Shown: piece by piece, positions 3,848 through 48,638 of the stretch
Layout: each line of letters opens with the position of its first letter
Numbering within the stretch: the first letter of the stretch is position 1
Origin: Thiomicrorhabdus marina
Lineage (GTDB): Bacteria > Pseudomonadota > Gammaproteobacteria > Thiomicrospirales > Thiomicrospiraceae
Assembly: GCF_017571465.1 (NCBI RefSeq)
Contig: NZ_JAGETV010000004.1
Coordinates: 62,001 to 126,000, forward strand
Reading direction: 5' to 3'
Length of the DNA: 64,000 nt
The notes under the pieces: model-generated
Told to the model about the DNA's origin: nothing
Databases searched by the model: none
The model's input: only the letters and a program-made list of their open reading frames with translations
Made by a program: the position numbers and the translations under genes

Positions 3848-3848
3848 A

Positions 3849-12160: not shown

Positions 12161-12315
12161 CGTGATATTGCATGATAGCTGATGAAACGTAATGATACTA
12201 AAAACCCCCATGAATAGGGACTTTGTGGATAGATATGTGGACTCATGAAACTCAAAAAACACCCTCTGATCAGGCGCTTTTTTTATATCTGGAATTTAAG
12301 CAAATCTCTTGTATC

Positions 12316-13290: not shown

Positions 13291-13439
13291 GAGCGAACGG
13301 CTCCAATTTCAGAAATAACTCTACAATATCGTTGCTTGTATTAAGGATATAAGAATTCTAACGAAATGCTGAAATTAATCTCAAGTGAGAAGTGTTTAAC
13401 CTGCGAAGTCTTGATGTAAACCAATAAAATTTGTTTTTA

Positions 13440-14048
13440 TCAGACAGGTTCTAACAACACACGCACCGGTTTAAAGGACCGACGATATTCAGCCAAAATA
13501 GGCAGCGATTTTAGACGTTCTAGGTGCGCAGGGGTCGGATAGCCTTTATGTTGTGCGAAACCATATTCAGGATGTTGTTTATCTAAATCTTTCATTTGTC
13601 GATCACGGTAAACCTTAGCGAGAATGGAAGCGGCTGAGATGGCAGGAACTTTACTGTCACCTTTAACAATCGCAACACATGGATGTGTGGTTTTGGGACA
13701 GCGATTACCATCAATCATCGCTAAGTCAAATGCACTTTGTTGTGCAACCTCTTCTATTGCCCGACTCATTGCTAACATAGTGGCTTGTAGAATATTTAAT
13801 TCATCAATTTCTTGTGGCGATGCCTTTTGGATGCTGTATGCAATCGCTTGCTGTTTTATTTCGGAAAACAGTGCTTCACGTTTTTTTTCACTGAGTTTTT
13901 TCGAGTCGTTCAAAGGCAATTGACAGTCTTCCGGCAGAATTACCGCAGCAGCAACCACATCACCGACTAAAGGGCCACGGCCAACTTCGTCTACCCCGAC
14001 GATGATTTGTGACGATTGATCATTAAACAAATCAATTTGTTTAGTCAT
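13440..14048 (-). CDS. rnhB: Ribonuclease HII
   Basis: RNase HII cuts the RNA strand of RNA-DNA hybrids and removes single ribonucleotides from DNA. The 202-residue protein has the type-2 signature [12 protein letters not shown] (Asp20, Glu21 as metal ligands), a further acidic residue in AMIDGNRC and the [20 protein letters not shown] block. The start at 14048 overlaps the lpxB stop by four bases (ATGA), a typical coupled start; another ATG five codons upstream is possible, with no better ribosome binding site. It is the last gene of the lpx operon. In many relatives dnaE and accA follow, but here cheV does. Confidence 0.94.
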
Positions 14049-15247
14049 GATTTCTGCATCCATGTCTGTAGTGCTTGCACTGCAAGTTTTGCGCTCGGTT
14101 GCTTAAGCTGTTGATACTGTTCAGCAAAGGCGATGAGCTGTTCTTGGCGCATTAAGTCTGAAGCGATTAATTCGGTTAGTTTTGCAGCAATATTTTCCGG
14201 CGTAGCTTCCGCCTGAATTAACTCCGGGACAACGGATTTATTAGCAAGAATATTCGGTAACCCAATCCATTTAGTGGTGGCAAGTTTCGACATTATCCAG
14301 TAAGAAATCGGATGAACTTTAATCGCAAGAATCAGAGGTCTTCGCATAAGCGCACACTCTAACGTTGCAGTACCGGAAGTAACTAGCGCTTGATCACAAG
14401 CTTCTAAAGCCAGTTGTGCCTGTCCATCAAGCAAGTGAATATGCTTGATGAATTGACTCTGTAATTGACCTTTTTCACCAAGTTCTACAATGGTGGTTTC
14501 GATATGTTTTTTGGCTTTTTCATGAACTACCGGTATCACAAAATGCATTTCTGAGTGTTGCTGAAATACCTGCTGTGATGCTAGTAAATACGGTTCTATC
14601 ATTTGTGAAATTTCACTCATGCGAGAACCTGGAAGAATTGCTAATACTTGGGCGTCCTTAGCTAACCCAAAACTGATACAAGCTTTCTGTTTATTCGGTA
14701 ACTCCGGTACCTGTTGCGCAAGGGGGTGTCCGACAAAGGCTACGGGAATTTCATAACGATGATAGTATTTTGGTTCGAAAGGAAAGAGAACCAAAACGCC
14801 ATTAACCGCCTGCTTAATTTTTGCCAAACGTTTTTCACGCCATGCCCACACAGAAGGTCCAACATAATGTGCAGTGGTAATACCCTGCTCTTTAAGTTTA
14901 CGTTCCACAGTAAAATTGAAATCCGGTGCGTCAATTCCAATAAAAATATCCGGCTGTGCGGCAATCAATCTTTCAATCAAATTCTTGCGTAACCTAAGCA
15001 GCTCACGCAGACGTTTGAGAACCTCAAAAAACCCCATAACTGAAAGACGTTCCATCGGATACCAAGATTCCATGCCTTCTGCAATCATCTTTGGTCCACC
15101 AATACCAACAAATTTTGCATTTGGATAAACACACTTTAACTCTTGCAATAAATCTGCCCCGAGCGTGTCTCCCGAAGTTTCACCGGCAACTAAAGCAATG
15201 GTTAATGGTTTAGTAGTAGATATAGAGCTGTGTTTGAGATCGGACAT
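14045..15247 (-). CDS. lpxB: Lipid-A-disaccharide synthase
   Basis: LpxB joins UDP-2,3-diacylglucosamine and lipid X to form the lipid A disaccharide at the inner face of the inner membrane. The 400-residue sequence has the GT19 features [17 protein letters not shown] near the N-terminus, [20 protein letters not shown] in the centre, LPGSRMSEI, and the sugar-nucleotide site [15 protein letters not shown]. Length is normal. It follows lpxA with a hairpin in between and overlaps rnhB. Order lpxD-fabZ-lpxA-lpxB-rnhB is standard in this class. Confidence 0.96.
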
Positions 15248-37178: not shown

Positions 37179-38144
37179 CTAGCAAAAACGATTACTGATT
37201 AAATGATTCATCTCTAGTGATTGTTTGAGCAACCCTTTCTCTAACATTATTTGCTGTACTTCATTAGCAGCAATATGCAGACGGCTACCGAGTTGCAATA
37301 AGCGACAATTTTCTTGTCGATTTGGCAATCGAATCCCTTTAATGGAATGAATAACTTCCGTATAACCAATATTTTGATGAGAAGCAATACGGTGAATCGC
37401 ATCGCCGTAATTAACATTGATATATTGCAGTGCGGAAAAGTGCCCTGCAATAAGTTGCTTTAATTGTGACTGAATAGCAGGTAACCGATCTGTTCTCACC
37501 GCAAGAACGTCAAATATCATGTCTGGGAAATCTCGGCTATCAAGTAAAACTCGACCGGATTCCGCTGTTAATAGCGACGCTGTTGGTTCATAGGTGATCA
37601 CAGCATCAACCACTTCATTACGCCATAACGCCACTTGTTCTTCACCAACAGCGGCGTCTACAGGAATCACATTCTCTAAGCGTAACCCAGCTAATTGCAA
37701 AGATTTTTGTAACATTAGCGAACCAACGGTATTGGCTTCATAAGCAATACGCTTGCCGCGCAGATCACCTAATGTCCTAATGCTATCGCGGCTAATAAGT
37801 TTATCCGCACCGGCAGAAATATCAAAAACCAAAACAATTGTTAAATCAGTGCCTTGATCAAGAAGTGTGAGCACTTCATCCAATGTTAAGGCACCCGCAT
37901 CAAGAACACCATTTGCCAAGCTTTCGATAGTCGACGATGCACTTGCATTTCGAATAAGTTCAATATTGTTTCTGAAGTAACCAAGGTCTTGAGCCAACTG
38001 CAATGACTCATAGCCAATCCAAGGATGAACCCCGACCTTTATTGGAATTTTTTCTGAACAAGCAGGCAGGAATAGAGAAGCCACACCCAGCAAACTCTTT
38101 TTTAGAGCAGCTCTTCTTCCGATCACAATAAACTTCCCTATCAA
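37179..38144 (-). CDS. NMT1/SsuA-like solute-binding lipoprotein
   Basis: A 321-residue periplasmic binding protein of the NMT1/ThiY/SsuA type. The signal region contains GRRAALKKSLLGVASLFLPAC, where LFLPAC is a lipobox-like site placing a lipidated cysteine near residue 29, and the RR could be a twin-arginine remnant. The mature domain has IKVGVHPWIGYESLQLAQDLGYF, SSTIESLANGVLDAGALTLDEVL and GKRIAYEANTVGSLM. Ligands in this family include thiamine precursors, sulfonates, nitrate and bicarbonate. No permease or ATPase is adjacent, so it is an orphan here. It lies 134 bases from the attachment site of the leuZ element. Confidence 0.8.
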   Translation of the reverse strand: MIGKFIVIGRRAALKKSLLGVASLFLPACSEKIPIKVGVHPWIGYESLQLAQDLGYFRNNIELIRNASASSTIESLANGVLDAGALTLDEVLTLLDQGTDLTIVLVFDISAGADKLISRDSIRTLGDLRGKRIAYEANTVGSLMLQKSLQLAGLRLENVIPVDAAVGEEQVALWRNEVVDAVITYEPTASLLTAESGRVLLDSRDFPDMIFDVLAVRTDRLPAIQSQLKQLIAGHFSALQYINVNYGDAIHRIASHQNIGYTEVIHSIKGIRLPNRQENCRLLQLGSRLHIAANEVQQIMLEKGLLKQSLEMNHLISNRFC

Positions 38145-38278: not shown

Positions 38279-38294
38279 AATGGTGCCCAGGGCC
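38279..38294. repeat. Left attachment repeat of leuZ element
   Basis: AATGGTGCCCAGGGCC is identical to bases 48550-48565 at the 3' end of tRNA-Leu, including the encoded CCA end. It marks the distal end of the element; beyond it the tRNA similarity stops at once. Confidence 0.9.
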
Positions 38295-38340
38295 TGCACC
38301 AAACCTGCCTATAAACAGGTAGCTTGAAGAGCAACACCTC

Positions 38341-38400
38341 AAATTTACCCCACTTTTTACCCCATTTAATCCAAATTTTTTAATCGCTATGTTTTACCCC
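38341..38400. promoter_or_regulatory. Arm-type TTTACCCC sites, left end
   Basis: TTTACCCC occurs at 38344-38351, 38356-38363 and 38393-38400. The first two lie in a 23-bp block (38341-38363) identical to 48403-48425 at the other end of the element. Shared short repeats inside both att ends are typical arm-type binding sites of tyrosine integrases. Confidence 0.65.
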
Positions 38401-38416
38401 CATTTGTTTTTTTTGA

Positions 38417-38444
38417 CGGGATTTAGCGGTTAATTCCGGTTATT
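38417..38444. repeat. Left copy of 28-bp inverted repeat
   Basis: A perfect 28-bp match, inverted, to 47021-47048; after a 2-base mismatch another TGGTA also matches. The two copies enclose all cargo from hicA to the 314-residue gene but exclude the integrase. Confidence 0.85.
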
Positions 38445-38481
38445 TTTGGTATTTTTCAAGGTCTGCACCCAGTTGTTTACA

Positions 38482-38491
38482 GTAGTACTAC
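38482..38491. promoter_or_regulatory. Palindromic operator candidate of hicAB
   Basis: GTAGTACTAC is a perfect 10-bp palindrome 20 bases before the hicA ATG. HicB antitoxins with a C-terminal DNA-binding domain repress their own promoter, so this is a likely operator. No ribosome binding site precedes the ATG, so hicA mRNA may be leaderless or nearly so. Confidence 0.5.
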
Positions 38492-38510
38492 AATTTAGTA
38501 CCATAATCAC

Positions 38511-38765
38511 ATGAAAGCCAAACACCGTAAAACCATAGAGTTAATTTTTAAGCGCCCAGTTAGTGCAAATATCAAGTGGAAGGATATTGAATCCCTTTTT
38601 ATTGCGCTCGGGGGTGAAGTCGAAGAACGTGAAGGCTCTCGGGTTGGCGTGTTTCTCTTTAATGAAGTGCGTATTTTCCACCGCCCCCACCCAACACCAG
38701 ATACGGATAAGGGCGCGGTTGCCAGTGTTAGGAAATGGCTTGAATTGAACGGGGTGAAACCATGA
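38511..38765 (+). CDS. hicA: HicA-family mRNA interferase toxin
   Basis: An 84-residue HicA toxin with a dsRNA-binding-like fold. It opens with KHRKTIELIFKRPVSANIKWKDIESL, has GGEVEEREGSRVGVFLF in the middle, and the histidine-bearing RIFHRPHPTPDTDKGAVASVRKWL, typical for the longer HicA group. HicA cleaves mRNA unless bound by HicB. It overlaps hicB by four bases (ATGA). It is the only plus-strand operon of the leuZ element, at the end away from the integrase, where it may stabilise the element or act in defence. Confidence 0.9.
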   Translation: MKAKHRKTIELIFKRPVSANIKWKDIESLFIALGGEVEEREGSRVGVFLFNEVRIFHRPHPTPDTDKGAVASVRKWLELNGVKP

Positions 38766-39097
38766 AGAACATTTTAGAAATTGACGGCTACAAAGCCCAC
38801 ATTGATTACGACCCAGATATTGAACTATTCCGCGGTGAATTTATCGGCCTAAATGGGGGCGCGGATTTTTACGCCTCAGATATTGAAGGTTTGAAAACTG
38901 AGGCTAGACAATCTCTAACCGCCTTTCTTGATATGTGCAAAGAAAAAGGCATTGAGCCTAAGAAACAATATTCAGGGCGTTTTAACGTGCGCATTGCCTC
39001 TGATCTGCACGAAAGAATTGCCGCTGTTGCCGTTGCTGAAAATAAAAGCCTTAACCAATTGATTGAAGAAAGCTTGTCTAAGGTCGTTTTAGGTTAA
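38762..39097 (+). CDS. hicB: HicB-family antitoxin
   Basis: A 111-residue antitoxin. Residues 1-65 form the partial RNase-H-like HicB fold (DGYKAHIDYDPDIELFRGEFIGL, then LKTEARQSLTAFLDMCKEKG), and residues 75-110 a ribbon-helix-helix DNA-binding domain (GRFNVRIASDLHERIAAVAVAENKSLNQLIEESL). It neutralises HicA and probably represses the operon through the palindrome at 38482-38491. It starts inside the hicA stop codon. Confidence 0.92.
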   Translation: MKNILEIDGYKAHIDYDPDIELFRGEFIGLNGGADFYASDIEGLKTEARQSLTAFLDMCKEKGIEPKKQYSGRFNVRIASDLHERIAAVAVAENKSLNQLIEESLSKVVLG

Positions 39098-39394
39098 ACC
39101 GTTTCCATATTGTTCAAATGCTATAGAATGGCACTTAATGGGAAATGAGGCGTGGGAATTTTCGGAGTCCACGCTACCCCGTTCACTTTGTGAACTTGCT
39201 GTATTGTCGTGAACTTCTCGGCATTATGGAGGGACGTCCGGCCTCCCGTTTCTCATTACTGGCAATCCTGCGCTTGCTGGATTGCTTTTTAATTAGCTTT
39301 TAGGTGGGGTTACCCACTCTGTGGAGTTCTTTGCATAACGGTACACAGGCATAGGCGATTTAATTCTGCGGAATGGCCGCCTTTTTTATGACAG
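39098..39394 (+). ncRNA. Hairpin-rich region after hicB, candidate small RNA
   Basis: 297 bp without a gene between convergent hicB and the RusA gene. On the plus strand several stems follow each other: GCGTGG/CCACGC (39150-39174), GTTCAC/GTGAAC (39181-39195), GGAGG/CCTCC (39228-39246), then an intrinsic terminator GCAATCC/GGATTGC plus T5 (39262-39290) and a second short GCGG/CCGC hairpin plus T6 (39368-39387). The density of stems and two terminators suggests a structured transcript; it may be only the hicAB 3' end. No promoter was confirmed. Confidence 0.4.
39262..39290 (+). terminator. Intrinsic terminator downstream of hicAB
   Basis: A 7-bp stem (GCAATCC/GGATTGC) with a 10-base loop is followed by T5-AATT on the plus strand. 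It would end hicAB or a small RNA. Confidence 0.7.
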
Positions 39395-39775
39395 CTAATC
39401 ATTCACTTCTCTAAGCAAAATTTCACAATAACCGGACTTATCAGGGTCTTTGCCGTGGCGTTGCACCGTTAGCCGGTCTATTTGCCCATCGTCCAGAATT
39501 AGACCGCCATCCTGTAAAGCATCAAGCACCGGCTTAACGCGGTTATCAATATCAAACGCCCGTCTATTGGGTGGATAGAGTCCGATAGTGACCGATAATC
39601 GGCATTTAAGCCCCTCTCCATGTAGATTTAGGGCTTTGAGTTGTTGGGCTACCAGTTTCTTAAACAACCTGCCCTTGGCGCTTAAATAGATCACGGTACC
39701 GGCACGGCGGTAATAGGTATTTGCCGTGGGAGGCCATGCAATCACAAAGCTGTATTCACGACTCAATCGCTTCAC
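39395..39775 (-). CDS. RusA-family Holliday junction resolvase
   Basis: A 126-residue RusA-like endonuclease. RusA cuts Holliday junctions and is common in lambdoid phages. It shows AWPPTANTYYRRAG, YLSAKGRLFKK, and the acidic active-site blocks NRRAFDIDNRVKPVLDAL and LILDDGQIDRLTVQRH. The start is GTG and overlaps the upstream coiled-coil gene by 20 bases; a TTG three codons in has a better placed GAGG. It is the last gene of the minus-strand operon of the leuZ element and would resolve recombination intermediates made by the SSB/annealing genes upstream. Confidence 0.9.
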   Translation of the reverse strand: MKRLSREYSFVIAWPPTANTYYRRAGTVIYLSAKGRLFKKLVAQQLKALNLHGEGLKCRLSVTIGLYPPNRRAFDIDNRVKPVLDALQDGGLILDDGQIDRLTVQRHGKDPDKSGYCEILLREVND

Positions 39776-40019
39776 CCTCGCAACGTAGATAGCTTTCGAT
39801 AAGATTAAGCCGGTTTCGAGTGCGTAATAACTCCCCCTCTATCGCCTTGTTTTCTTCCAACTTGATAAAGATTTGCTCTTTGAGCACCTTGGTAAGTTCA
39901 TCTAGCCGCGCGTTATGTTCTTCAAGCTGTGATACTCGTTGAAATAGTTGTGCTATCGGTTCACTTGTTGCGGCATTGCAGGCCGCTTTAATCGCTTGTA
40001 GGTCGTTATCGGTCATCAT
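39756..40019 (-). CDS. Small coiled-coil hypothetical protein
   Basis: An 87-residue soluble protein that is nearly all helical, with a heptad-like centre (RVSQLEEHNARLDELTKVLKE and more). It lies between the Gp157-like gene (8 bases upstream) and the RusA gene (20-base overlap) on the minus strand, so it belongs to the replication operon. No family was recognised and no function is proposed; phage operons often contain such short coiled-coil genes. Confidence 0.65.
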   Translation of the reverse strand: MMTDNDLQAIKAACNAATSEPIAQLFQRVSQLEEHNARLDELTKVLKEQIFIKLEENKAIEGELLRTRNRLNLIESYLRCEGEAIES

Positions 40020-40027
40020 TGCGCCCC

Positions 40028-40531
40028 CTACTTGATTCTTAGGCTTGGTTTGCTCGTTGTCAGGCGTGCACCGGCAATCTCTAGCCCATCCTTTAACGCC
40101 TTGGTTAAGGCGGCCTTATCCGGTTTTATTTCGGTCTTAACGCTCATGTATTCATCCGGTAGCGCGGCTTCGTCTGTTACTTCACAGATAGCACGGCCTT
40201 TTACCAGTGAAATAGTGAATAGCGGGCTTTCAATCTTGGTGATTTCACTGGCTTCCATGTTGTTGCGTAAATAGTCTTTTAACGCCGTCTGTCGATTAAC
40301 AATGGTTTTTTTACGGGCTTGCAGGCGTTTGATTTCGGCATCAATCGCGGTGGTGTTCGCCCCCAATGTTTCAGCAACCTTTACTAAGGCTTCTGCCTTG
40401 TCGTTAAACTGCATTTGCAGGGCTTCCATCGTATCGGCTATAGCTAATGCAAAACTCTGATCGTCTTCCACTTCAAAGGCTAGGTGTGACAGTTCGTTTA
40501 GTTCGGTTGTTAGTTCATAGAGTTTGGTCAT
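40028..40531 (-). CDS. Siphovirus Gp157-like protein
   Basis: A 167-residue protein with a long helical first half (LYELTTELNELSHLAFEVEDD, then AEIKRLQARKKTIVNRQTALKDYLRNNME) and a C-terminal domain containing LFTISLVKGR and KTEIKPDKAALTKALKDG, the layout of the Siphovirus Gp157 family. That family usually sits in phage recombination modules; its biochemical role is not settled. The start at 40531 is chosen for AAGGA nine bases ahead; an ATG 14 codons upstream is at the stop of the previous gene. It lies after the annealing-like gene and before RusA. Confidence 0.8.
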   Translation of the reverse strand: MTKLYELTTELNELSHLAFEVEDDQSFALAIADTMEALQMQFNDKAEALVKVAETLGANTTAIDAEIKRLQARKKTIVNRQTALKDYLRNNMEASEITKIESPLFTISLVKGRAICEVTDEAALPDEYMSVKTEIKPDKAALTKALKDGLEIAGARLTTSKPSLRIK

Positions 40532-40572
40532 TTTCTTATTCCTTTCCGGTCTTTCTGTAGGGTGTGGGGGCA

Positions 40573-41361
40573 TTAATGTGCCGCCGTTGTTACATTGCCT
40601 TGATTTGACATTAATTCGCCGTGTACGGCCTTAGAATCAGTCGTTTCTTGATTGGGTTTTGATTCGTCTGTTACGGCTTCAATTTCGGCCTTGCGTTTAT
40701 CCTTGGCGCGTTCAAGTTTGATTAGCCATTGATTCGCTTTTTTCAAATTGGCCTTTCTTACCGCCATCGTATAAAGCCCCTTAAGTTCTCCCATACTGGG
40801 GGCGGCGGTCACTCGTTCCAGTAGATCCGCCATTTCTGACTCAAAGGCCTGTGCCTGTTTGAGTTTTTCCGCTTCATGGTCAATGGCCTTTTCTGCCTTG
40901 GCCTCTTGCGCACGGTGCTCTGTGTAGTGCACGTCCTCAAACATCCCTAGGTAAACGTCTGCATTGAATCCAGGCTTTGAAAGCGCCTTGCTTAGGGTGT
41001 TGGTTTCCAGTTTCTTGAGTGCGTCCGCGTCCACAAATTCACCGTTTCGGGTTTGCTGTCGAATATGAATGGCGTTACCGATTTCAAACGCGCCCCACGG
41101 GTACCAGAAAACAGCCTTGAGCGTTACCAGTCCTAACGACTCCACTAGGCTGTAATCGTGCTCAATGTCTTTAAGTCCCCATGTCGAACCGTATAGACCG
41201 AAAACCTTAGTCGCGGTCTTGAGTTGGTACATCGGGTCAATGGAGGTAAAGCCGCCGCGTTGCTTACTGAATTTGGTGAAATCAGGGTCGGTCTTACTGA
41301 CTGAATCCCATAACGCCAAATTATCGGCCTGCATTGCGTATTGTTGCTGTGTTGGTTGCAT
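40573..41361 (-). CDS. Putative phage ssDNA-annealing/recombination protein
   Basis: A 262-residue protein. The first 150 residues include LWDSVSKTDPDFTKFSKQRG, TSIDPMYQLKTATKVFGLYGSTWGLKD and ALSKPGFNADVYLGMFED, a pattern seen in phage proteins lying beside SSB and probably related to Rad52/Sak-like annealing proteins. The remainder is helical and charged. The annealing role is inferred mainly from context: SSB is immediately upstream, Gp157 and RusA downstream. The residue pattern alone does not prove it. Confidence 0.55.
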   Translation of the reverse strand: MQPTQQQYAMQADNLALWDSVSKTDPDFTKFSKQRGGFTSIDPMYQLKTATKVFGLYGSTWGLKDIEHDYSLVESLGLVTLKAVFWYPWGAFEIGNAIHIRQQTRNGEFVDADALKKLETNTLSKALSKPGFNADVYLGMFEDVHYTEHRAQEAKAEKAIDHEAEKLKQAQAFESEMADLLERVTAAPSMGELKGLYTMAVRKANLKKANQWLIKLERAKDKRKAEIEAVTDESKPNQETTDSKAVHGELMSNQGNVTTAAH

Positions 41362-41374
41362 CGTTCACCCCCTG

Positions 41375-41893
41375 CTAAAAATTCACGTCATCGTCTTCAA
41401 AATCGTTATAACCGCCATTCACCGTGGGCGGTTGTTGATTCTGATAGGCGGCTTGGTGTTGTGGATTGTGAAAGCCGTTTTGATTGGATTGCATAGAATG
41501 CCCTGTATGCCCTCCGTTTTGGTTTTGGCTATGGTTACCCATGTTTGGTGGTGTTTGAGGCGTGTACCCCTGTTTATTTTCGTTTCTTACCTGTTTTGTG
41601 CTGTTCTTACCGGCAATCCCCTCAAGGGTAATTTGCATTTGCTCCACTTCTTGGTTTTGCTGATTGGTGTAGCTGTTGATCTTGAGCGTACCGGCCACGT
41701 TTACGCCGTCCCCCTTGGAATAGGTCATTAACTCGTTAGCGACTTCACCAAAGGCAACCAGTGACAAGGCTAGGTCTTTGGAGTCCTCCCCCAACTTGGC
41801 AAACCCAAAACCGGTAGCCATGAAATTGTTGTTTCGAGTCGTTCGGCTCTGAGGCTCTTTTGCTAATCGAATGTTTGCGCTAATGAAAGCCAT
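41375..41893 (-). CDS. Single-stranded DNA-binding protein (phage-type)
   Basis: A 172-residue SSB-like protein. Residues 1-100 form an OB-fold (ISANIRLAKEPQSRTTRNN, FMATGFGFAKLGEDSKDLALSLVAFG, KGDGVNVAGTLKINSY). A Q/N/G-rich disordered linker follows, and the acidic tip ends DFEDDDVNF, close to the DDDIPF-type tail through which SSBs recruit partners. The start at 41893 has GAGGA upstream; another start 16 codons earlier has none and gives an atypical N-terminus. It heads the recombination part of the operon; about 225 bases of non-coding, repeat-rich DNA separate it from the replication genes. Confidence 0.88.
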   Translation of the reverse strand: MAFISANIRLAKEPQSRTTRNNNFMATGFGFAKLGEDSKDLALSLVAFGEVANELMTYSKGDGVNVAGTLKINSYTNQQNQEVEQMQITLEGIAGKNSTKQVRNENKQGYTPQTPPNMGNHSQNQNGGHTGHSMQSNQNGFHNPQHQAAYQNQQPPTVNGGYNDFEDDDVNF

Positions 41894-42118
41894 TTTTTTA
41901 ATCCTCGTTTCAATTACTAATTTCAGTTTGATTAGTAGCAATTCAGTAGATGACCACTTACCCTAAACTTTAGTATCTCTAGCTTTTTTCTCCCCCCTAG
42001 ATGGATACTAGAAGATATACAGTTTCTGTATCTATGACCTCTCTAAAAACCCCGTTTTAAAGTACAGTTTCTGTATCTATGATCGGGTGATGACTTTCCA
42101 TAGATACAGTTCCTGTAG
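41894..42118. promoter_or_regulatory. Repeat-rich gap before ssb
   Basis: Between the winged-helix gene and ssb, the motif TACAGTTTCTGTA (or ACAGTTCCTGTA) recurs at about 42,017, 42,063, 42,105 and, inside the end of the upstream gene, 42,128, each followed or preceded by TCTA-T-GA-like bases. The core ACAGTTTCTGT is an imperfect dyad. Four copies in about 125 bp suggest an operator or replication-protein binding site. Confidence 0.55.
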
Positions 42119-42562
42119 CTAGATAGATACAGTTTCTGTACAGGAGGGGTTATTATTTTCTAAGTGATTTATCCCTAAAGTTTTGCCTACTAATTCACGT
42201 GCTGTTGGGTCATATTTGTAACTGGGTTTTTCATCAATTCTGAGCCATGTAACAGCAAATAAAGAGCACGTTTTAGGGAAAAATCCCTGTCTGGTTTTGT
42301 AGAGCAAGCCAGAATTAATTAACTCATCTATACACTTTTGAAGAGTTACAGGGGACTTCCAACCTCTGGCCTTAAAAATATTAAAAGAGGCCTGTAGGTC
42401 ACCGTTATTCCCACCTTTGAATTGGTCACAAATCTGAGTCAAAAGTTTTGCGGCATTGCCGCTTAAGCCTTGGTAGTTTTTTGAGTTAATGACACTTGAC
42501 GGCATTTTAAAAAACGCACCGTGCGCCTTTCTTCCCTTAGCATTTCCCTGTTTACTTGTCAT
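42119..42562 (-). CDS. Winged-helix protein, replication-type (paralogue B)
   Basis: A 147-residue basic protein. Its central 90 residues (FFKMPSSVINSKNYQGLSGN through RGWKSPVTLQKCIDELINSGLL) form a winged helix-turn-helix that is clearly related to the C-terminal half of the gene just upstream: both share LSxxAKxLLxxIxxQ, GxNNGxL, RGWKSxxTxxKxxDEL and SGL. The start at 42562 follows AGGG and does not overlap the upstream gene; an ATG 14 codons earlier would. Role inferred: DNA binding in replication initiation or operon control. TACAGTTTCTGTA repeats overlap its 3' end. Confidence 0.7.
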   Translation of the reverse strand: MTSKQGNAKGRKAHGAFFKMPSSVINSKNYQGLSGNAAKLLTQICDQFKGGNNGDLQASFNIFKARGWKSPVTLQKCIDELINSGLLYKTRQGFFPKTCSLFAVTWLRIDEKPSYKYDPTARELVGKTLGINHLENNNPSCTETVSI

Positions 42563-42573
42563 GCAGTGCCCTA

Positions 42574-43182
42574 CTAAATTGCTCTTTGTTGGCGGTCTAC
42601 CCACGTTAGGCCGTAGTTATTCGGCTCCCCGTATCTTGTGCTTTTGACGCAGAAAGCAAGGCCGCTATAAACCAGTTCATCAAGATGTTTTTTAATGGTG
42701 TTTTTGGACTTCCAACCGCGCCCCTTTAGTTCTTTGTGCGTTGCAGTTAATTCACCATTATTTGAGCCGTCATACTGGTTAATAAGTTCCCATAGCAAAG
42801 CCTTTGCCCCATGACTCAAGTTCTCGTATTTCTTTAACCCTAAGAGGCGTTTCGTTACGATGATCGTTTTCTCGGGGTTGTCTTTCGGCTTAATCTGCTC
42901 CCATCCGTTAGCCTTTGCCATCGCTACAAATTGCATAAAATCCGCTCGTGTTACAGGTTGGGGGCGGTTTAAAACGTAGTCCGTAAATTCGACCTCTGAA
43001 AAATCACGGTCATCAATCCAGTAAAAAACAACCAAGTGCGCGCCCCGTCCGTAAATTCTGCTGATACAACTAAAAAGCGTATCTTTTTGCTCTCTGTCTA
43101 TCCCTCTAGGGATATAGGTAAGCATTCGTTCAAGCTGTTCAACCGGCGGCGGTGTATCAGGTCTCACAATTCCCCCTCCCAA
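42574..43182 (-). CDS. PriCT-like plus winged-helix protein (paralogue A)
   Basis: A 202-residue two-domain protein. Residues 10-95 (VEQLERMLTYIPRGIDREQKD, ending in MAKANGWEQI) resemble the PriCT-2 domain found at the C-terminus of phage and plasmid primase-polymerases. Residues 105-200 are a winged helix-turn-helix paralogous to the next gene downstream. No primase or helicase active site is present. The gene overlaps the upstream PriCT-only gene by 19 bases. It looks like part of a split replication initiator, a reading that is inference. Confidence 0.6.
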   Translation of the reverse strand: MGGGIVRPDTPPPVEQLERMLTYIPRGIDREQKDTLFSCISRIYGRGAHLVVFYWIDDRDFSEVEFTDYVLNRPQPVTRADFMQFVAMAKANGWEQIKPKDNPEKTIIVTKRLLGLKKYENLSHGAKALLWELINQYDGSNNGELTATHKELKGRGWKSKNTIKKHLDELVYSGLAFCVKSTRYGEPNNYGLTWVDRQQRAI

Positions 43183-43442
43183 CCGTTTGCCTTAGCTTCA
43201 AAGTACAAACCGACACAGTTCACACCGTCCACCGGCTGTATGTTTTGCCAAGTCGTAGAGAAACTCGCTGAATGGAAATTAGGTGCGCGTCTAGCCCATT
43301 GGTGGGCGGCTGTCTTACCGCTGATACCAAACTCGGATTTAATCGCCGTCAGTATGGCTAGAAATCGGTTGTGGTCGTTCGGTATCGGGGTATAATCGAG
43401 AACGCCTTCAAGCTGTTGGGGAGTTAGTGCTTTGCTTTGCAT
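43164..43442 (-). CDS. Stand-alone PriCT-2-like domain protein
   Basis: A 92-residue protein that consists only of a PriCT-2-like domain: LTPQQLEGVLDYTPIPND, FLAILTAIKSEFGISGKTAA, WARRAPNFHSASFSTTWQNI and the closing AKANGWEGEL. In most elements this domain is fused to a primase or helicase; here it stands alone and overlaps both neighbours (19 bases on each side). It may bind DNA or a host primase. The assignment rests on pattern memory, with no active site to confirm it. Confidence 0.6.
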   Translation of the reverse strand: MQSKALTPQQLEGVLDYTPIPNDHNRFLAILTAIKSEFGISGKTAAHQWARRAPNFHSASFSTTWQNIQPVDGVNCVGLYFEAKANGWEGEL

Positions 43443-43924
43443 GGTGCTTCCTCCCCATCATCTTTCAAACTCGCAAAACTCTTGAGCATTTGCCCCTTTA
43501 CCGCTAGATAAATATCTTCATCCATCAAAACGGCGGCCTCTCTTGCAAGGGCTTGGCTAAGCGGTTCAATCAACTGGAACAGTCGTAAAGCGTTCTTTAG
43601 GCGGTCAATTTCAAATTTCGTGTCTTCCTCTGATAACTCAATGACATTCATCAAATCAGATAGGCTTAAATCCTTGCCATGTGTTGCGCCGTAATTCAGG
43701 CCGCCTTGTAGCTTTCCTAGGCTAATGATTGTGTAAGTGAGCGCGTCCTCAATCTCTTTAAGTGCCAATTTGCGCAAGGTAAACGCCGCTTGGTATTCTT
43801 CAAGAGAAGTGAATAAAGGCTCTCTATTGTCGATGCGCTTTTGTAGTTCGGCCTCGGTGATCGTGCCGTCCAAAACGTCAAAATTCACCTTGCGCACTAA
43901 TTCCGCAAATTTAAGCCAGTCCAT
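43424..43924 (-). CDS. Hypothetical helical protein of the leuZ element
   Basis: A 166-residue soluble, acidic, helical protein (WLKFAELVRKVNFDVLDGTITEAEL near the start, LSEEDTKFEIDRLKNALRLFQLIEPLSQAL later). It overlaps the PriCT-like gene by 19 bases and shares its start base with the stop of the next gene upstream, so it belongs to the tightly packed minus-strand operon. No family was recognised and no function is proposed. Confidence 0.7.
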   Translation of the reverse strand: MDWLKFAELVRKVNFDVLDGTITEAELQKRIDNREPLFTSLEEYQAAFTLRKLALKEIEDALTYTIISLGKLQGGLNYGATHGKDLSLSDLMNVIELSEEDTKFEIDRLKNALRLFQLIEPLSQALAREAAVLMDEDIYLAVKGQMLKSFASLKDDGEEAPCKAKH

Positions 43925-44190
43925 TACGCCCCCTCGTATTCTGATTCAGGTGCAATAATCTCTAGCAGTTCGCGGCTATCCATTGCTAAACGGTTTAGGT
44001 GGTAGGCGTGGTCGCTTACTTTGACCTGTTGAGCGGTGGTATGCAGTGACATATCGGAAATATCGCAACTAATCGCTCTGATTGCGGTTAGGTTGTCAGC
44101 TAGCATAAGGCGGCTAAGTTCGGCCAATTCTTGGCGGTCTTGCGGTTCTTTGGCGTTGTAGAGTTCGGCAAACTGAATTAAACGGCTCAT
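43924..44190 (-). CDS. Small hypothetical helical protein
   Basis: An 88-residue protein, largely helical (RLIQFAELYNAKEPQDRQELAELSRLM). The start at 44190 overlaps the stop of the upstream gene (TAATG), a typical coupled start; the frame is open further upstream, but that part lies inside the other gene. The family is unknown. It is the second gene of the operon after the structured leader. Confidence 0.65.
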   Translation of the reverse strand: MSRLIQFAELYNAKEPQDRQELAELSRLMLADNLTAIRAISCDISDMSLHTTAQQVKVSDHAYHLNRLAMDSRELLEIIAPESEYEGA

Positions 44191-44483
44191 TAGTCGCGCC
44201 CTCCCATGCTTAAAGCAGGTAGGAAAACGCTCATTTCTGGCACGCCTTGGGTAGAAAGCCATAAGGCAAGGCTGTCTAGGTCTTCAAAGTAACGAGTAAA
44301 GCCGTTAGATGGATTGCATATTGTGGCAACTTGTCCGGATTCGGTCTCAATCATGAGCGACCATCCGCAAGCAGGCGAATAGACGGCAATAAACCGCTTA
44401 ATAAAACTGTGTTGTGGGAGTTCGATAGAAAAGGAAAAATCCGCGGGGGTGAATTTACCGCGTGTTTGAGAAGTATTAGCCAT
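44190..44483 (-). CDS. 97-residue first gene of replication operon
   Basis: A 97-residue protein (ADFSFSIELPQHSFIKRFIAVYSP, ACGWSLMIETESGQVATICNP, YFEDLDSLALWLSTQGVPEM) likely of mixed alpha/beta fold. The start at 44483 is set by a perfect AAGGAGG seven bases ahead, the strongest ribosome binding site in the element. The reading frame stays open for 111 codons further upstream to an ATG at 44816, but that part covers a region of stable hairpins. Function unknown; position recalls small regulatory proteins at the head of P4-like operons. Confidence 0.75.
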   Translation of the reverse strand: MANTSQTRGKFTPADFSFSIELPQHSFIKRFIAVYSPACGWSLMIETESGQVATICNPSNGFTRYFEDLDSLALWLSTQGVPEMSVFLPALSMGGRD

Positions 44484-44858
44484 GTGGTGGCCTCCTTGGG
44501 ATTCTAGCTTAGTTTTCCCACCTGCGATTTTTACAGGTGGACGGGTATCACTAATCGTCCCAAGACGACTGAACATATTCCCCCACGAATGGGGTCTTTT
44601 ATTTTGTTCATTAACCCGTCCATATTTTGAAATACGGTTACGGTTTTTCATGCCCATAGCGCAAAGAAATGCACGGATTTTAGGCACAAAAAAAGCACTG
44701 TTTAAGACTTTGCTCTGTCTCTTGGGATTTTTAGTTAGGCCGCCAATGTTAGCGGCTTTGGTTGTTCCATGCAAGCCCATAGAGCCACATAGCGCGTTTT
44801 TTATTGCTGTTGTCATCTGATTGCCTTCAAGCTATTTAAATGGTCATTAACTGCCGTT
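44484..44858 (-). promoter_or_regulatory. Structured leader between alpA and replication operon
   Basis: 375 bp without a confident gene. Stems include CCACCTG/CAGGTGG (44519-44541, 7 bp), a long-range GGACGGGT (44539-44546) with ACCCGTCC (44614-44621), GGACG/CGTCC just inside it, and CCCC/GGGG (44581-44594). In phage P4 an RNA with complementary repeats in the operon leader gives immunity by terminating transcription early. This region sits in the matching place after alpA and before the replication genes, so an RNA switch is plausible but unproven. The frame of the downstream gene remains open through it. Confidence 0.45.
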
Positions 44859-45050
44859 TTAAGCGGCGCCAACGTTTGAGCATTGGTTAATCCACGCTGT
44901 TACATCGCTTTCAAGCCATCCCACTGAACGCGCGCTAAGTTGCTTGCGCTGAGGGAACTCCCCCGCCTTTACTTTTCGGTAGATCGTTGTGCGTGAAAGC
45001 CCTGTTGCTTCAATGACTTCTTTAAGTCTCATAATCTTTGCTTGGCTCAT
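44859..45050 (-). CDS. AlpA-family transcriptional regulator
   Basis: A 63-residue AlpA/excisionase-like MerR-type helix-turn-helix: IMRLKEVIEATGLSRTTIYRKVKAGEFPQRKQLSARSVGWLESDVTAWI. In E. coli AlpA activates a prophage integrase; in Gram-negative PICI satellites AlpA is the main inducer; in other elements it acts as an excisionase. The start abuts the stop of the Mor-like gene, so the two are coupled. It probably controls the operon below or excision of the element. Confidence 0.92.
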   Translation of the reverse strand: MSQAKIMRLKEVIEATGLSRTTIYRKVKAGEFPQRKQLSARSVGWLESDVTAWINQCSNVGAA

Positions 45051-45475
45051 TATCGTCCCCCTTTTCTTACTTCTGTCATTAGTGCCTTTTGGCGTTTTAT
45101 TGCCGTTCTAATCGTCATTTCTGAAACCCTGTATTTCTTAGCTAATTCAGGGTAGTTAAAGCCTGTAAAGTCCTTGGAAATACGTAAATCCTGTATGGCT
45201 TGTTTAAGCCCACTGGATGCCGGTAAATAAAAGGATTTCCCACCCATATAAAGCGAAATCGCGGTGCAAATCGAAGCGGCTAAAGCCTTTTGTGCATCCT
45301 CGTTATTGAGGCCGCTCTTTTCGATTTCGTTAAGTGCTACCTCGTAAAATTCTTGGATGCGTCTAGGCCAAAGTTTCAAGTGCACGCCTTGGTATTCTGC
45401 CGCCAAGAGTTTCAACCCCTCTTCATGCTCGTTAATTTCGCCTTGTGTTAGTCCTGCTACTTCGATATTTGCCAC
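45050..45475 (-). CDS. Mor-like middle-operon activator
   Basis: A 141-residue protein resembling the Mor/C transcription activators of phage Mu: a helical dimerisation half (AASICTAISLYMGGKSFYLPASSGLKQAI) and a C-terminal helix-turn-helix (DFTGFNYPELAKKYRVSEMTIRTAIKRQ). The start is GTG with AAAGGTG ahead. Mor-type proteins turn on phage operons together with host RNA polymerase, so this may activate the element or sense a helper phage. It shares its stop region with the alpA start. Confidence 0.8.
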   Translation of the reverse strand: MANIEVAGLTQGEINEHEEGLKLLAAEYQGVHLKLWPRRIQEFYEVALNEIEKSGLNNEDAQKALAASICTAISLYMGGKSFYLPASSGLKQAIQDLRISKDFTGFNYPELAKKYRVSEMTIRTAIKRQKALMTEVRKGGR

Positions 45476-45714
45476 GGTGTCACCTTTAACCTCTATGAAT
45501 TGAAGCGCCTCAAGCCATGTTTCAAGAGTGTAAAAACGGTGCCGGCATGGTTGTATTTCAAGTGTTTGAGAAGAAATACCAGTAACGCCCTATTTGCCCC
45601 GTGACGTACCGTGTTGGCTTGGGGGTAATTAAAGCGCGTTGATCTGGCAAAGTGAGAGCCACCTACAGGTAGCACCTAGGTAGCAGTTAGGCTATTTTTT
45701 GGGGAGTTAAAACG
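45476..45714. promoter_or_regulatory. Control region upstream of mor-like gene
   Basis: This non-coding stretch before the mor-like gene contains AGGTAGCA twice, at 45667-45674 and 45678-45685, 11 bp apart (one helical turn), inside a CTAC/GTAG-rich palindromic patch. It is the natural place for the promoter and operator of the mor-alpA-replication operon. A 60-codon frame on the minus strand (45493-45675) looks like chance. Confidence 0.45.
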
Positions 45715-45740
45715 AAAAAAGCCCCATGATTAGGGGCTTT
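45715..45740 (-). terminator. Terminator after 314-residue cargo gene
   Basis: AAAGCCCC and GGGGCTTT form an 8-bp stem around ATGATTA, followed by T6 on the minus strand. It separates the cargo gene from the mor-like operon. Confidence 0.8.
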
Positions 45741-45764
45741 AACAGGTGTTAGTAAAAAGTTGAA

Positions 45765-46709
45765 TTAATTACGTTTATTTGGGTTTGCAGTTATGGCTAT
45801 TCGTCCGGCTCGGGTTGTTGATTCAATGCCTTTTTTATTCATCAACCAGTCAGTCATACCCTTAACGCTTTGGTGGGCTACATTGTCGATAAATGCCGCT
45901 TTATGCGCTTGAATCGCTAAATCAATATCGGGGGCGTAAATCGGGCTGTTTGGGTCAAGGTATGGGGGCGTATCTGTCTGCTGATCGGTGGATGTTGGTG
46001 CTTCAAGATAGGCGGCCACTTCTTCACGGCTAATAAATAAATCAGCGCTTTTTGATTGTTGTTTCATCGCTTCATAATTCCAAAAAAAGCGACCGTTCTC
46101 AATGTCGAAAATAGTAGGCTCTATCGGAATAAAACAGGCCTGCCCATTCTGTAAATAATAAGCGCCTGTTTCGTGTGCCTCGATTATGAAGCCGTCCGTA
46201 CTCTTTGGCGTTCCATATGCTGTAAACGGCTCTTTATTGAATACACTACCTATAATGAAAGGCTCCCCCCATCCCTCTGAATTTTCAAGCCTTTCTGCTT
46301 TGATTGGTGTCAGATTTATTTCTGAAATCTCTAAGCCGTGCTTAATAAATGGCTTTGAATAAGTAACGTTCTTTACAAACGATAAGCCTTTATGAATCGG
46401 CTTTATATAGGCTCGATACATATCCAGAAAATAGGCCTTATCTGAATCTTCTAGGCTGTTGTAGTGTCTTCTTGCTGTGTTCTGAATGTCTTTTAATTTG
46501 GAAAATATAAAGCGGTTTTCATCCATCTGAGACGCATTAACAACCATAAAAAAATCACTTGTAACGCTTGCGACTACATTAAATACTCCCTGCTCTGCAA
46601 GATATCGCACGTCTTCAACCGTTACCGCTCCTACAAGGTCGTACTTACTTAATATTTTCGCCACTTCTTCAAGGCTGTAATAAGGTCTTTCAAGCCCAAG
46701 AGATTTCAT
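45765..46709 (-). CDS. Unrecognised 314-residue cargo protein
   Basis: A 314-residue soluble protein. The N-terminus (ERPYYSLEEVAKILSKYDLVGAVTVEDVRYLAEQG) looks like a helix-turn-helix of the excisionase/MerR kind, followed by a mixed domain (FFMVVNASQMDENRFIFSKL), a central part with ENSEGWGEPFIIGSVF and TDGFIIEAHETGAYYLQNG, and a helical C-terminus ending in lysine and asparagine residues. No family was recognised. It is a single-gene unit between int and the mor operon with its own structured leader and terminator, the usual slot for accessory genes (for example defence) in satellites; that role is speculation. Confidence 0.75.
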   Translation of the reverse strand: MKSLGLERPYYSLEEVAKILSKYDLVGAVTVEDVRYLAEQGVFNVVASVTSDFFMVVNASQMDENRFIFSKLKDIQNTARRHYNSLEDSDKAYFLDMYRAYIKPIHKGLSFVKNVTYSKPFIKHGLEISEINLTPIKAERLENSEGWGEPFIIGSVFNKEPFTAYGTPKSTDGFIIEAHETGAYYLQNGQACFIPIEPTIFDIENGRFFWNYEAMKQQSKSADLFISREEVAAYLEAPTSTDQQTDTPPYLDPNSPIYAPDIDLAIQAHKAAFIDNVAHQSVKGMTDWLMNKKGIESTTRAGRIAITANPNKRN

Positions 46710-46753
46710 TTTGCACGGCCTCCCGACCTCTCCACTACTGAATAAGGTGGCAC

Positions 46754-46803
46754 GGTCTGGGGCGGGTGGATAGTCCGCCTTTTCGGGTGATCTGCCCTAG
46801 ACC
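46754..46803. promoter_or_regulatory. Stem-loop in leader of cargo gene
   Basis: GGTCT-GGGC (46754-46763) pairs with GCCC-AGACC (46794-46803), with single-base bulges. An alternative inner stem GGCGG/CCGCC (46761-46779) uses part of the same bases, so two exclusive folds are possible. It lies 45 bases upstream of the 314-residue gene on its transcript strand. Confidence 0.45.
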
Positions 46804-46830
46804 ATGCCAATAATGTTCTGTATACGGCTT

Positions 46831-47019
46831 AAATTACCGCCAACTATAAGCGCTGTTAGTTTCTCCGGTACCAGACAGAAATTAAGGCATCATTCGAGCT
46901 CAAACTAATTTCTCCGGAAGTAGACACAAATTAGTGCCAACTACAACCGCCGCTATTTTCTTCCGTATCTGGCACAAATTACCGCCAACTATAAGCGCTG
47001 TTAGTTTCTCCGGTACCAG
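46831..47019. repeat. Four-unit tandem array, period 48-49 bp
   Basis: Units begin AAATTA at 46831, 46880, 46928 and 46976. The first and last share 44 identical bases (46831-46874 and 46976-47019), while the two middle units are diverged. Each intact unit holds a near-palindrome AACTATAAGCGCTGTTAGTT. Regular phase and conserved dyads point to protein binding, such as a replication origin or recombination accessory sites. Spacers are only 4-5 bp, so this is not a CRISPR array. Confidence 0.85.
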
Positions 47020-47020
47020 T

Positions 47021-47048
47021 AATAACCGGAATTAACCGCTAAATCCCG
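47021..47048. repeat. Right copy of 28-bp inverted repeat
   Basis: The perfect reverse complement of 38417-38444, lying directly after the tandem array and 16 bases from the end of the integrase gene. Confidence 0.85.
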
Positions 47049-47064
47049 CCTAAATTAATCACCG

Positions 47065-48330
47065 TTACGCCGTTCCTCGATTAATTGGGATAACATCGCC
47101 ACCGGCTTTGATTCCGTCTAGGTAGTCGCTCCAATGTTGGAGCATTTTGCGGCGTTGTTCGAGTTTCTGAGCCTTGTTATACACGCCCCGAACGCCCCCG
47201 ATAACGTGATTTAATTGCAGTTCGATTTCATCGGCGTTAAAGCCTATCTCGTTTAGCATGGTGCTAGCTGTATGCCTAAAGCCGTGGGGAACTATCAGCG
47301 TATTGAGGCCGTTATCCCTTACATTCTTGTTTATCGAACCGCTTGTAATATGGCTGTTGGTCATTGGCGATTTGAATACATACGGGGTTTCACCAGTCAG
47401 GGCATACAACTCATTGAGCATCGTTTCAACTTGGCGGCTCATTGGAATAATGATTATTTTGCCCTCCCCTGTTTGGTCTCCCTTGGTGGTTATGCGGTGT
47501 ATTTCCTTGGCTTTGAAATCGACTTCATCCCAACGCATTGCCACTAATTCGCTCGGTCTAAGGAAAACGTGAAGCCCAAGCCGTAAACAGCTTAATACCT
47601 CGAAAGTACCGCGCATGGCGTCCAGTTTACTGAGAACGGTTTTTAGTTCTTTGGGGGTGGTAACGTGCTTTAACTGCTTGGCAACGTGTTTAACGAATAG
47701 CGCCCGTGAAATGTATAAGGCAGGGTCGCGGTCTATGTAGCGTTTTCCCTTGGCATACTCAAATAACAGCTTAAACACGCTGTAGACCTTATCCCGATTC
47801 TCTAGGGTGCCGTGCTCTTGGATTCTTAACAGACAATCTTCTAGCTGTTGCTCGTTGATCTGCACAACCGGCACAGTGCCAAGCAGTGGCAAAACGTGCT
47901 TTTCAAATCTAAGCTTATGCTTTTGGTAGGTGCTTAATGCCCATTCTGGTTTGCGGTCACCATAGCTTTTAGTCTTATGGGTGTAGAACTCATCCAATAA
48001 CAGGGAAAAGGTCATCAAATCACTTTCGGCCTGTTGCCTTGCCGCTTGTTCTGCAATTTGTTGCTTTTGGTGGCGCTTATGGTCATTCGGATTAATACCG
48101 GCCTTAACCAGTTGGCGTGCTTCGTCTCTAAGTGTTCGAGCTTCCAGTAGGCTAATTGCAGGGTATTCGCCTATCGTGTGATCTGAGTCTTTTCCGTCCA
48201 TCTTAAAGCGGTATTTGAAAACCTTGGTACCGGCCTTAGTGATTTCCAAGCGCAAGCCGCCGCCGTCCGATAACTTTTGAACTTTACCGGTGGGTTTGGT
48301 CTTTCTGATTTTGGTATCGGTAAGCGCCAT
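47065..48330 (-). CDS. Tyrosine integrase of the leuZ element
   Basis: A 421-residue P4/DUF4102-type integrase. It has the arm-binding domain (LTDTKIRKTKPTGKVQKLSDGGGLRLEI, then ARTLRDEARQLVKAGINP), a core-binding domain (about 105-215), and the catalytic domain with arginine in HVFLRPSELVAMRW, HGFRHTAS, and tyrosine in RGVYNKAQK. The gene lies next to the tRNA-Leu attachment site and reads away from it. It is related to the left island integrase but clearly distinct. TTTACCCC sites in its promoter region and at the far end are likely its arm-type sites. Confidence 0.95.
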   Translation of the reverse strand: MALTDTKIRKTKPTGKVQKLSDGGGLRLEITKAGTKVFKYRFKMDGKDSDHTIGEYPAISLLEARTLRDEARQLVKAGINPNDHKRHQKQQIAEQAARQQAESDLMTFSLLLDEFYTHKTKSYGDRKPEWALSTYQKHKLRFEKHVLPLLGTVPVVQINEQQLEDCLLRIQEHGTLENRDKVYSVFKLLFEYAKGKRYIDRDPALYISRALFVKHVAKQLKHVTTPKELKTVLSKLDAMRGTFEVLSCLRLGLHVFLRPSELVAMRWDEVDFKAKEIHRITTKGDQTGEGKIIIIPMSRQVETMLNELYALTGETPYVFKSPMTNSHITSGSINKNVRDNGLNTLIVPHGFRHTASTMLNEIGFNADEIELQLNHVIGGVRGVYNKAQKLEQRRKMLQHWSDYLDGIKAGGDVIPINRGTA

Positions 48331-48366
48331 TGCTAACCCCCTAATAACGGTGGAATTAGTGAAAAT

Positions 48367-48425
48367 GGGGTAAATAAGGGGGGTTAATTGAATTGGGGTT
48401 AGAAATTTACCCCACTTTTTACCCC
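48367..48425. promoter_or_regulatory. Arm-type TTTACCCC sites, right end/int promoter
   Basis: TTTACCCC occurs at 48406-48413 and 48418-48425 inside a 23-bp block identical to 38341-38363, plus the inverted GGGGTAAA at 48367-48374. The sites lie between int and the tRNA att repeat, so integrase bound here could also repress its own promoter. Confidence 0.65.
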
Positions 48426-48549
48426 CTAAAATCCTGCGCTTTTATGGTACAACGTGAAACACTGTGAAACAACTAAAACGCTGAAACGACGTATAGAGAA
48501 GGGTTTGAATGGGGTATTTGGAATGATTTGAAACTTGCTGAAACGTAAG

Positions 48550-48565
48550 AATGGTGCCCAGGGCC
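48550..48565. repeat. Right attachment repeat inside leuZ
   Basis: AATGGTGCCCAGGGCC, covering the CCA end and acceptor 3' strand of tRNA-Leu plus two flanking bases, is repeated at 38279-38294. Confidence 0.9.
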
Positions 48566-48638
48566 GGAGTCGAACCGGCACAGTGTTTCCACCGGGGGAT
48601 TTTAAGTCCCCTGCGTCTACCAATTTCGCCACCTGGGC
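48552..48638 (-). tRNA. leuZ: tRNA-Leu(TAA)
   Basis: An 87-base class II tRNA with a seven-base acceptor stem GCCCAGG/CCTGGGC, the GGTTCGACTCC T-arm, a long variable arm, anticodon loop CTTAAAA giving UAA, and encoded CCA. Third in a Gly-Cys-Leu operon as in E. coli. The leuZ element is inserted at its 3' end, and the tRNA is kept intact by the repeat. Confidence 0.96.

Follow-up and report, generated by a model that had tools for sequence, protein, structure and literature searches.

A probable phage satellite in a tRNA-Leu gene of Thiomicrorhabdus marina with a candidate RepA_N-like origin of replication

The described satellites closest to a 10,287-bp element that we find at positions 38279–48565 of the window (the whole 64,000-nucleotide stretch of Thiomicrorhabdus marina, a marine sulfur oxidizer, analyzed here; contig NZ_JAGETV010000004.1, positions 62,001 to 126,000) are Gram-negative phage-inducible chromosomal islands (PICIs), P4-like satellites, the PICI-like elements (PLEs) of Vibrio cholerae, and phage-inducible chromosomal minimalist islands (PICMIs). 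PICIs of the EcCICFT073 type share with the element a specific attachment (att) site, AlpA, and iterons directly 3′ of the initiator gene (a putative one in the element), but they encode a primase-type Pri-Rep (PMC6092414), whereas Pfam and PHROG searches of the element find neither primase nor Pri-Rep, only a PriCT_2 domain and winged helices. P4-like satellites resemble it in their tRNA site, AlpA/Vis-type regulator, C4/cI-type RNA (a candidate in the element, below threshold in the window), and length of ~10 kb, yet are equipped with alpha primase-helicase, sid, delta, and psu, families absent from its open reading frames (ORFs) in the same searches. PLEs share an initiator likened by its RepA_N fold, iterons, and the lack of a primase and helicase of their own, and are a precedent for a satellite initiator that depends on the helper replisome; unlike the element, they have a large serine recombinase, a length of ~18 kb, and a RepA with an additional C-terminal domain (PMC7145576). 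PICMIs are likewise marine and minimal, with integrase and AlpA and no capsid-remodelling genes, but they occupy fis and carry a DUF3987/DUF5906 primase (PMC10803314), a family not found in the element, which sits at tRNA-Leu. The element itself is probably a phage satellite, a known class of mobile DNA. We put at roughly 0.7 the probability that it is an integrated, replication-competent, virion-less satellite carried in helper phage particles, with PICI/P4-like regulation and a RepA_N-like origin.

The element is bounded by an exact 16-bp direct repeat (AATGGTGCCCAGGGCC). The tRNA-distal copy (38279–38294) is identical to the tRNA-side copy (48550–48565), which overlaps the 3′ end of the target gene, tRNA-Leu(UAA) (48552–48638, minus strand; ARAGORN and Rfam). 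Inside both ends lies a 32-nt direct repeat starting AAATTTACCCCACTTTTTACCCC (91% identical; TTTACCCCACTTTTTACCCC at 38341–38372, second copy at 48403–48434), with a related inverted copy at 48363–48391. These repeats are placed as expected of integrase arm sites, and we annotate them as putative ones; the arm-site repeat is also retained at the distal end of a sister element described below. Every gene except hicAB is oriented away from the tRNA, starting with a tyrosine integrase (47065–48330, minus strand; PF00589, PF13356, PHROG_1; 94% identity to the sister).

Downstream of the integrase, regulators give way to a replication and recombination module (minus strand throughout; percentages are identities to the sister). 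The first gene encodes a protein of 314 aa (45765–46709). It is followed by a Mor-family transcription activator (45050–45475; PF08765, E = 7.7e-20; PHROG_532; 88%), an AlpA regulator/excisionase (44859–45050; PF05930, E = 8.3e-19; PHROG_2790; 97%), and conserved genes of 112 aa (43924–44262; 85%) and 166 aa (43424–43924; 90%). Next come a PriCT_2-like protein of 92 aa (43164–43442; PF08707 at its cut-off; 93%), a 202-aa fusion of PriCT-like and winged-helix parts (42574–43182; no counterpart in the sister), and a 161-aa winged-helix protein (42119–42604). The remainder comprises SSB (41375–41893; PF00436; 90%), a Sak/annealing-like recombination protein (40573–41361; PHROG_7838, E = 1e-37; 90%) with one phage relative annotated as RAD52-like, Gp157 of the Gam-like end-protection family (40028–40573; PF05565, E = 4.7e-44; PHROG_253; 95%), an 87-aa coiled-coil-like protein (39756–40019; 62%), and the RusA Holliday-junction resolvase (39395–39775; PF05866, PHROG_34; 88%). 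On the plus strand, a hicA-hicB toxin-antitoxin cassette (38511–39097; PF07927, PF05534; 94%) closes the distal end. No capsid, portal, terminase, tail, or relaxase family was convincingly matched by the element's proteins in Pfam and PHROG.

An earlier, sequence-only reading of this DNA had anticipated much of this anatomy: a 10.3-kb element in tRNA-Leu with exact attachment repeats and the integrase at the tRNA end, AlpA and Mor-type regulators, a PriCT-like protein, SSB, annealing-like, Gp157, RusA, and hicAB genes, no virion genes, and a gene set that is neither standard PICI nor P4, lacking a recognizable primase-helicase and including Mor. The searches above bear out each of these points. 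Its "paired winged-helix proteins" do have homologous winged-helix parts, but only the 161-aa protein consists of the domain alone, the other being the PriCT-like fusion. Its "one large unknown cargo gene", the 314-aa gene, indeed matches no family in Pfam, PHROG, PADLOC, or NCBIfam, and can now be described as a fast-evolving gene with a ~30% identical homologue at the same position in the sister; its predicted structure (pLDDT 36) was set aside. We propose that both this gene and hicAB serve as exchangeable cargo for maintenance or interference. What that reading overlooked is the role of the winged-helix gene and the adjoining intergenic repeats, which look like an initiator gene next to the origin that it serves.

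An intact sister element at the same tRNA marks this gene set as a unit. Throughout, G numbers denote compared genomes (G000 being the T. marina host), C28 is a contig of G000, and L numbers are individual loci or stretches examined in genomes or viral contigs. The complete chromosome of another Thiomicrorhabdus species (G024) carries the same gene order in the same tRNA, with an att-like end at ~15.3 kb of L018, most genes 84–97% identical to ours, and no virion genes. The initiator region differs: G024 has PriCT and a winged helix, and the window has PriCT, the PriCT–winged-helix fusion, and a winged helix, which looks like a duplication. Most genomes of the genus have this tRNA without the matching integrase, and the downstream flank of the G017 tRNA matches the outer flank in the window at 90% over 38 nt. 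Since a different, P4-like element with an integrase and a TOPRIM-type protein of 893 aa sits in this tRNA-Leu in G003 (L067, G003:C1:1352000-1371500), the site is a hotspot. Outside the element, a gene for an NMT1-like substrate-binding protein (37179–38144) separates the distal att from a DsbA-like gene in the window and is missing from the G024 interval.

The winged-helix gene is the most informative part of the element. Its 161-aa product matches the O-like family PHROG_18020, and an AlphaFold2 model gives a confident winged helix (pLDDT 83.6). The first five Foldseek chains are RepA_N entries (4pt7, 4pql, and 5kbj, with 4pta lower; E = 7e-3, probability 0.99), and the sixth is 4ro3, the N-terminal domain of the PLE satellite RepA (PMC7145576). 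A profile search also recovers 4pta (E = 8.8e-4), with a match covering most of the domain. The Pfam RepA_N family (PF06970) gives no match to this protein at E 0.1, and the sole Pfam match of the G024 protein is HTH_36. The modelled fold lends support to a resemblance to RepA_N initiators such as pSK41 RepA and PLE RepA, and we treat the protein as a putative initiator.

Homologues of the winged-helix gene are associated with integrase islands. The family occurs in 17 other genomes of the class (369 searched) and 29 of the phylum (398 searched), in one of 72,556 plasmid records, and in one of 50,697 phage records, the last being an integrase island of 16 kb in which no virion gene is annotated. 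A tyrosine integrase lies 0.4–4.9 kb upstream on the same strand in 30/32 loci with enough flank, often together with AlpA. Several viral contigs (L208, L212–L217, L223–L225) have the layout of capsid-forming PICI-like elements of ~10–12 kb. These share with our element the integrase, small genes, winged helix, palindromic iterons, and AT-rich motif, as well as AlpA (clear in L208, weak in the others) and, in L208, a C4 RNA; their gene order then runs through HK97 capsid, protease, portal, HNH, TerS, and TerL, where the T. marina element has SSB-Sak-Gp157-RusA-hicAB. The winged helix and iterons are also seen in small restriction-modification islands without SSB, Sak, or Gp157 (L025 in G060, L021 in G014, L024 in G007; integrase seen in L021 and L025, AlpA in L025) and in an Rhs island.

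Repeats directly 3′ of the winged-helix gene suggest a replication origin. Four 13-bp palindromic iterons, TACAGTT(T/C)CTGTA, occupy 42018–42140 (at 42018, 42063, 42105, and 42128; form TACAGTTTCTGTA), and several copies of a different form, CGTAATTTTTACG, lie at the same place in G024. Each locus has repeats of its own, namely GTCCAATAATTGGAC in L025, GATTCGnnnnnCGAAC in L024, GACCGATTATCGAAC in L021, and GTTCAAAAATTGAAC or GCGCAGAAACTGCGC in the capsid-forming relatives. Across all distinct loci, significant locus-specific repeats were found in 29/43 downstream regions versus 2/42 upstream controls. In most loci the last repeat adjoins a conserved motif near ACCTTTATATATCTACCATAGGG. When ten loci are used to train a matrix, it finds this motif in most held-out loci (top score 25.6 bits, the G024 copy), while upstream controls mostly score 0–5 bits with a maximum of 8.3; a regular expression made after inspection matches 31/69 downstream and 0/69 upstream regions. 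Conversely, an exact-motif search of 2.9 million viral contigs returned 64 stretches, most of them chance, three of which are new stretches with a winged-helix gene 73–190 nt upstream in the right orientation and a palindrome touching the motif. PICI iterons stand on both sides of the AT-rich region (PMC6092414), whereas those of the candidate origin stand on one side only.

Initiator and iterons appear to change together. The winged-helix gene is only about 40–53% identical between the window and G024, the value varying with the window copy chosen for the comparison, and the iterons are different too, while most flanking genes are 84–97% identical. Such joint divergence would be expected if a binding protein were swapped together with its sites as one cassette. 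We put forward, on evenly balanced odds, that the winged-helix gene, its locus-specific iterons, and the motif ACCTTTATA(T/G)ATCTACCAT form an unrecognized type of origin in proteobacterial satellites and integrase islands, capsid-forming ones included, whose initiator and iterons evolve or swap as a cassette. The literature searched, with key papers on capsid-forming PICIs outside its scope, contains no description of this module, and its priority is uncertain.

The alternative that survives best, although we consider it unlikely, is that the winged-helix protein regulates transcription, with the palindromes as its operators and the TATA-like motif as a promoter of the downstream module, rather than an origin. 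The motif does resemble a −10 element (TAGAAT, TAGATT), and the downstream module varies by locus, comprising capsid genes, restriction-modification genes, or recombination genes. However, the center of the adjoining palindrome lies ~16 bp from that of the TATA-like motif, over the −10/−35 spacer, an arrangement ill suited to an activator, and we see no −35 element. The matches of the protein by fold and to the O-like family point instead to initiators, and published PICIs have their origin directly 3′ of rep (PMC6092414).

The recombination genes recur in two distant cousins that lack capsid genes. Among 63 genomes of the order, the Sak protein has matches only in G000 (two copies), G024, and G020 (T. 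cannonii HH3); alignment against genome and viral contigs otherwise yields, apart from T. cannonii, distant relatives alone. The second G000 copy belongs to a 14-kb element on C28 (L009, about 930–15120) with the repeat CCCAGCTCCACCA read from sequence, inserted in what is, judging by its 3′ sequence, apparently the 3′ end of ssrA. Its order is integrase, HigBA, AlpA, TOPRIM protein, AAA protein, SSB, Sak, Gp157, RusA, TerS (Nu1), and TerL (GpA), and its distal end adds a 176-aa protein and a DUF4145/PD-T7-4-like protein, the latter being the only useful result when unknown genes were compared with PADLOC and NCBIfam. We saw no capsid, portal, or tail gene in it. The G020 element, also capsid-free, begins with integrase, an int-alpA RNA, a 323-aa gene, and a TOPRIM protein; it continues with a large helicase-like protein without a family match, SSB, Sak, Gp157, and RusA and closes with a homologue of the 176-aa protein, followed by a tRNA. 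Because the T. marina, C28, and G020 elements differ in their replication fronts, their gene orders indicate that SSB-Sak-Gp157-RusA is a stable block moving with varied replication fronts and without virion genes.

Two candidate structured RNAs suggest regulation of the P4 and PICI kind. Directly downstream of alpA, on the minus strand, lies a match to sRNA-Xcc1/C4-type RNA, a candidate immunity RNA (44532–44620; 42.8 bits against a gathering threshold of 53, E = 5.5e-5). The G024 orthologue scores 57.6 bits, above gathering, and when the two sequences are folded to a consensus, two-sided changes preserve three pairs, one-sided changes preserve two, and none is broken. A C4 antisense RNA occupies the equivalent position in L208. 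The immunity of P4 and P1 is set by an RNA of such kind at such a place, and by analogy the C4-type RNA likely acts as a premature-termination switch. An antisense target was also considered, but the 9-bp complement in the PriCT gene, although present in G024 too, is at chance level. A 208-aa ORF (44190–44816, minus strand) overlaps this RNA; in ORFs of this kind, seeming protein conservation may reflect the RNA instead, and the protein is doubtful. An int-alpA RNA (RF02996; 46736–46807, minus strand; 32.2 bits against a gathering threshold of 35.8, E = 0.0015) separates int from the next gene; it scores 46.6 bits in the G020 element and is found at two other winged-helix loci. AlpA activates PICIs and PICMI excision (PMC6092414, PMC10803314). 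A Mor gene adjoining AlpA is unusual, and alignment of Mor against the viral contigs found no relative; its product could act on the element or on helper late genes.

Several observations weigh against our interpretation as a helper-packaged satellite with its own origin. Both RNA matches in the window fall under curated thresholds. VIA-align Z scores to RepA_N are middling (7.0–7.9), and unrelated winged helices score equally well, which leaves the fold evidence supportive but not decisive. The AT-rich motif copy adjoining the iterons in the window (41993–42018, minus strand) is degenerate (5.8 bits, p = 0.2), and the origin there may therefore be weak; alternatively, the repeats may serve as operators. 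In the element we recognized no cos/pac site, terminase, capsid-remodelling gene, or interference gene, and no PF05136 or PF04860 portal or PF05065 capsid was found in G000, G024, or G020, with working controls. The absence of a resident helper would be unremarkable if the PLE precedent holds, since the helpers of PLE and PICMI are virulent phages (PMC10803314).

A search for helper-type genes in the genus returned few terminases. The sole GpA terminase of the host is the one within the C28 element; others occur in a G009 prophage, in a short G002 contig with a capsid-like gene, and as a below-cut-off match in G006. The G009 prophage (L284/L285, G009:C1:1928000-1962000) is a full HK97/GpA-type prophage and a plausible type of helper. 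This prophage, the one full GpA-type prophage of the genus checked, has no match to the recombination and replication proteins of the element.

It is distinctly improbable that the element is a non-phage genomic island for defence or toxin-antitoxin functions, moved by natural competence, in vesicles, with a conjugative helper, or through generalized transduction, whose replication genes only stabilize the circle. The restriction-modification and Rhs islands with winged-helix/iteron modules (above) would fit such an island, as would the failure to find a helper or packaging site. On the other hand, no relaxase was recognized among the ORFs, and phage packaging is indicated by TerS/TerL of the C28 cousin and by the capsid-forming relatives with the same winged-helix backbone. 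Still less credible is a temperate phage reduced by deletion to its early region for integration, replication, and recombination. Although Sak and Gp157 are phage-type proteins and are neighbors in complete phages, Pseudoalteromonas phage HS2 for example, the same compact and highly similar content stands at the same site in two species, two more virion-less cousins carry the block, hardly any phage or plasmid record contains the winged-helix/iteron module, and no prophage found in the order has Sak.

The sequence-only reading had called the element a helper-dependent satellite. As for satellite over decayed prophage, that judgment is well supported, because an intact sister exists in a second species and no prophage found in the order carries Sak; nor were late-gene remnants or full-length relatives at the tRNA site found in the element, G024, the genus sites, or G009, or the same module in a full prophage. 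As for the helper, none of the three portal and capsid types turned up in the host.

Together, the anatomy and precedents lead us to infer the following life cycle for the satellite. The integrase would insert the element into the 3′ end of tRNA-Leu and, with AlpA, excise it. In the latent state, the C4/sRNA-Xcc1-type RNA downstream of alpA may limit read-through into the replication operon, as in P4 and P1. Helper infection would then increase mor-alpA expression, as PICI and PICMI work suggests. The RepA_N-like winged-helix protein might bind the palindromic iterons 3′ of its own gene and open the adjoining AT-rich site, and with one or more PriCT proteins it could recruit the host or helper replisome, no primase-helicase being encoded. 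SSB, the Sak-like annealing protein, Gp157, and RusA would drive the formation of recombination-dependent concatemers and their resolution, giving DNA that a helper terminase could package.

Such an element matters for how satellites are detected and replicate. Satellites are usually spotted by primase or packaging genes, and an element with neither would escape models relying on them. If the module is an origin, it explains how integrase islands without a primase-helicase, capsid-forming PICI-like ones included, could replicate after excision, and its short cis signature and small protein are testable on one plasmid. If initiator and iterons do evolve or swap as a cassette, the motif could locate cryptic satellites and replication boundaries. 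RepA_N has been described as very rare in Gram-negatives (PMC7145576), and a RepA_N-like initiator widespread in proteobacterial islands would broaden the hint given by PLE.

Two further non-coding features were noted. A terminator-like element 3′ of rusA (39285–39389, minus strand) is 73% conserved in G024, where it lies across hicAB, the position of hicAB relative to it having shifted between the two elements. Upstream of the 314-aa gene, three copies of a 59-nt repeat (46816–47019, minus strand; repeat analysis) contain the 22-nt motif GCGCTTATAGTTGGCGGTAATT, for which 0.01 occurrences are expected by chance in the window. The motif has no occurrence in the viral contigs and is found in three different integrated elements of the genus, three times in the window, twice in L065 (19065, 19162), and once in L010 (5708), and may serve a common helper factor as operator or packaging site.

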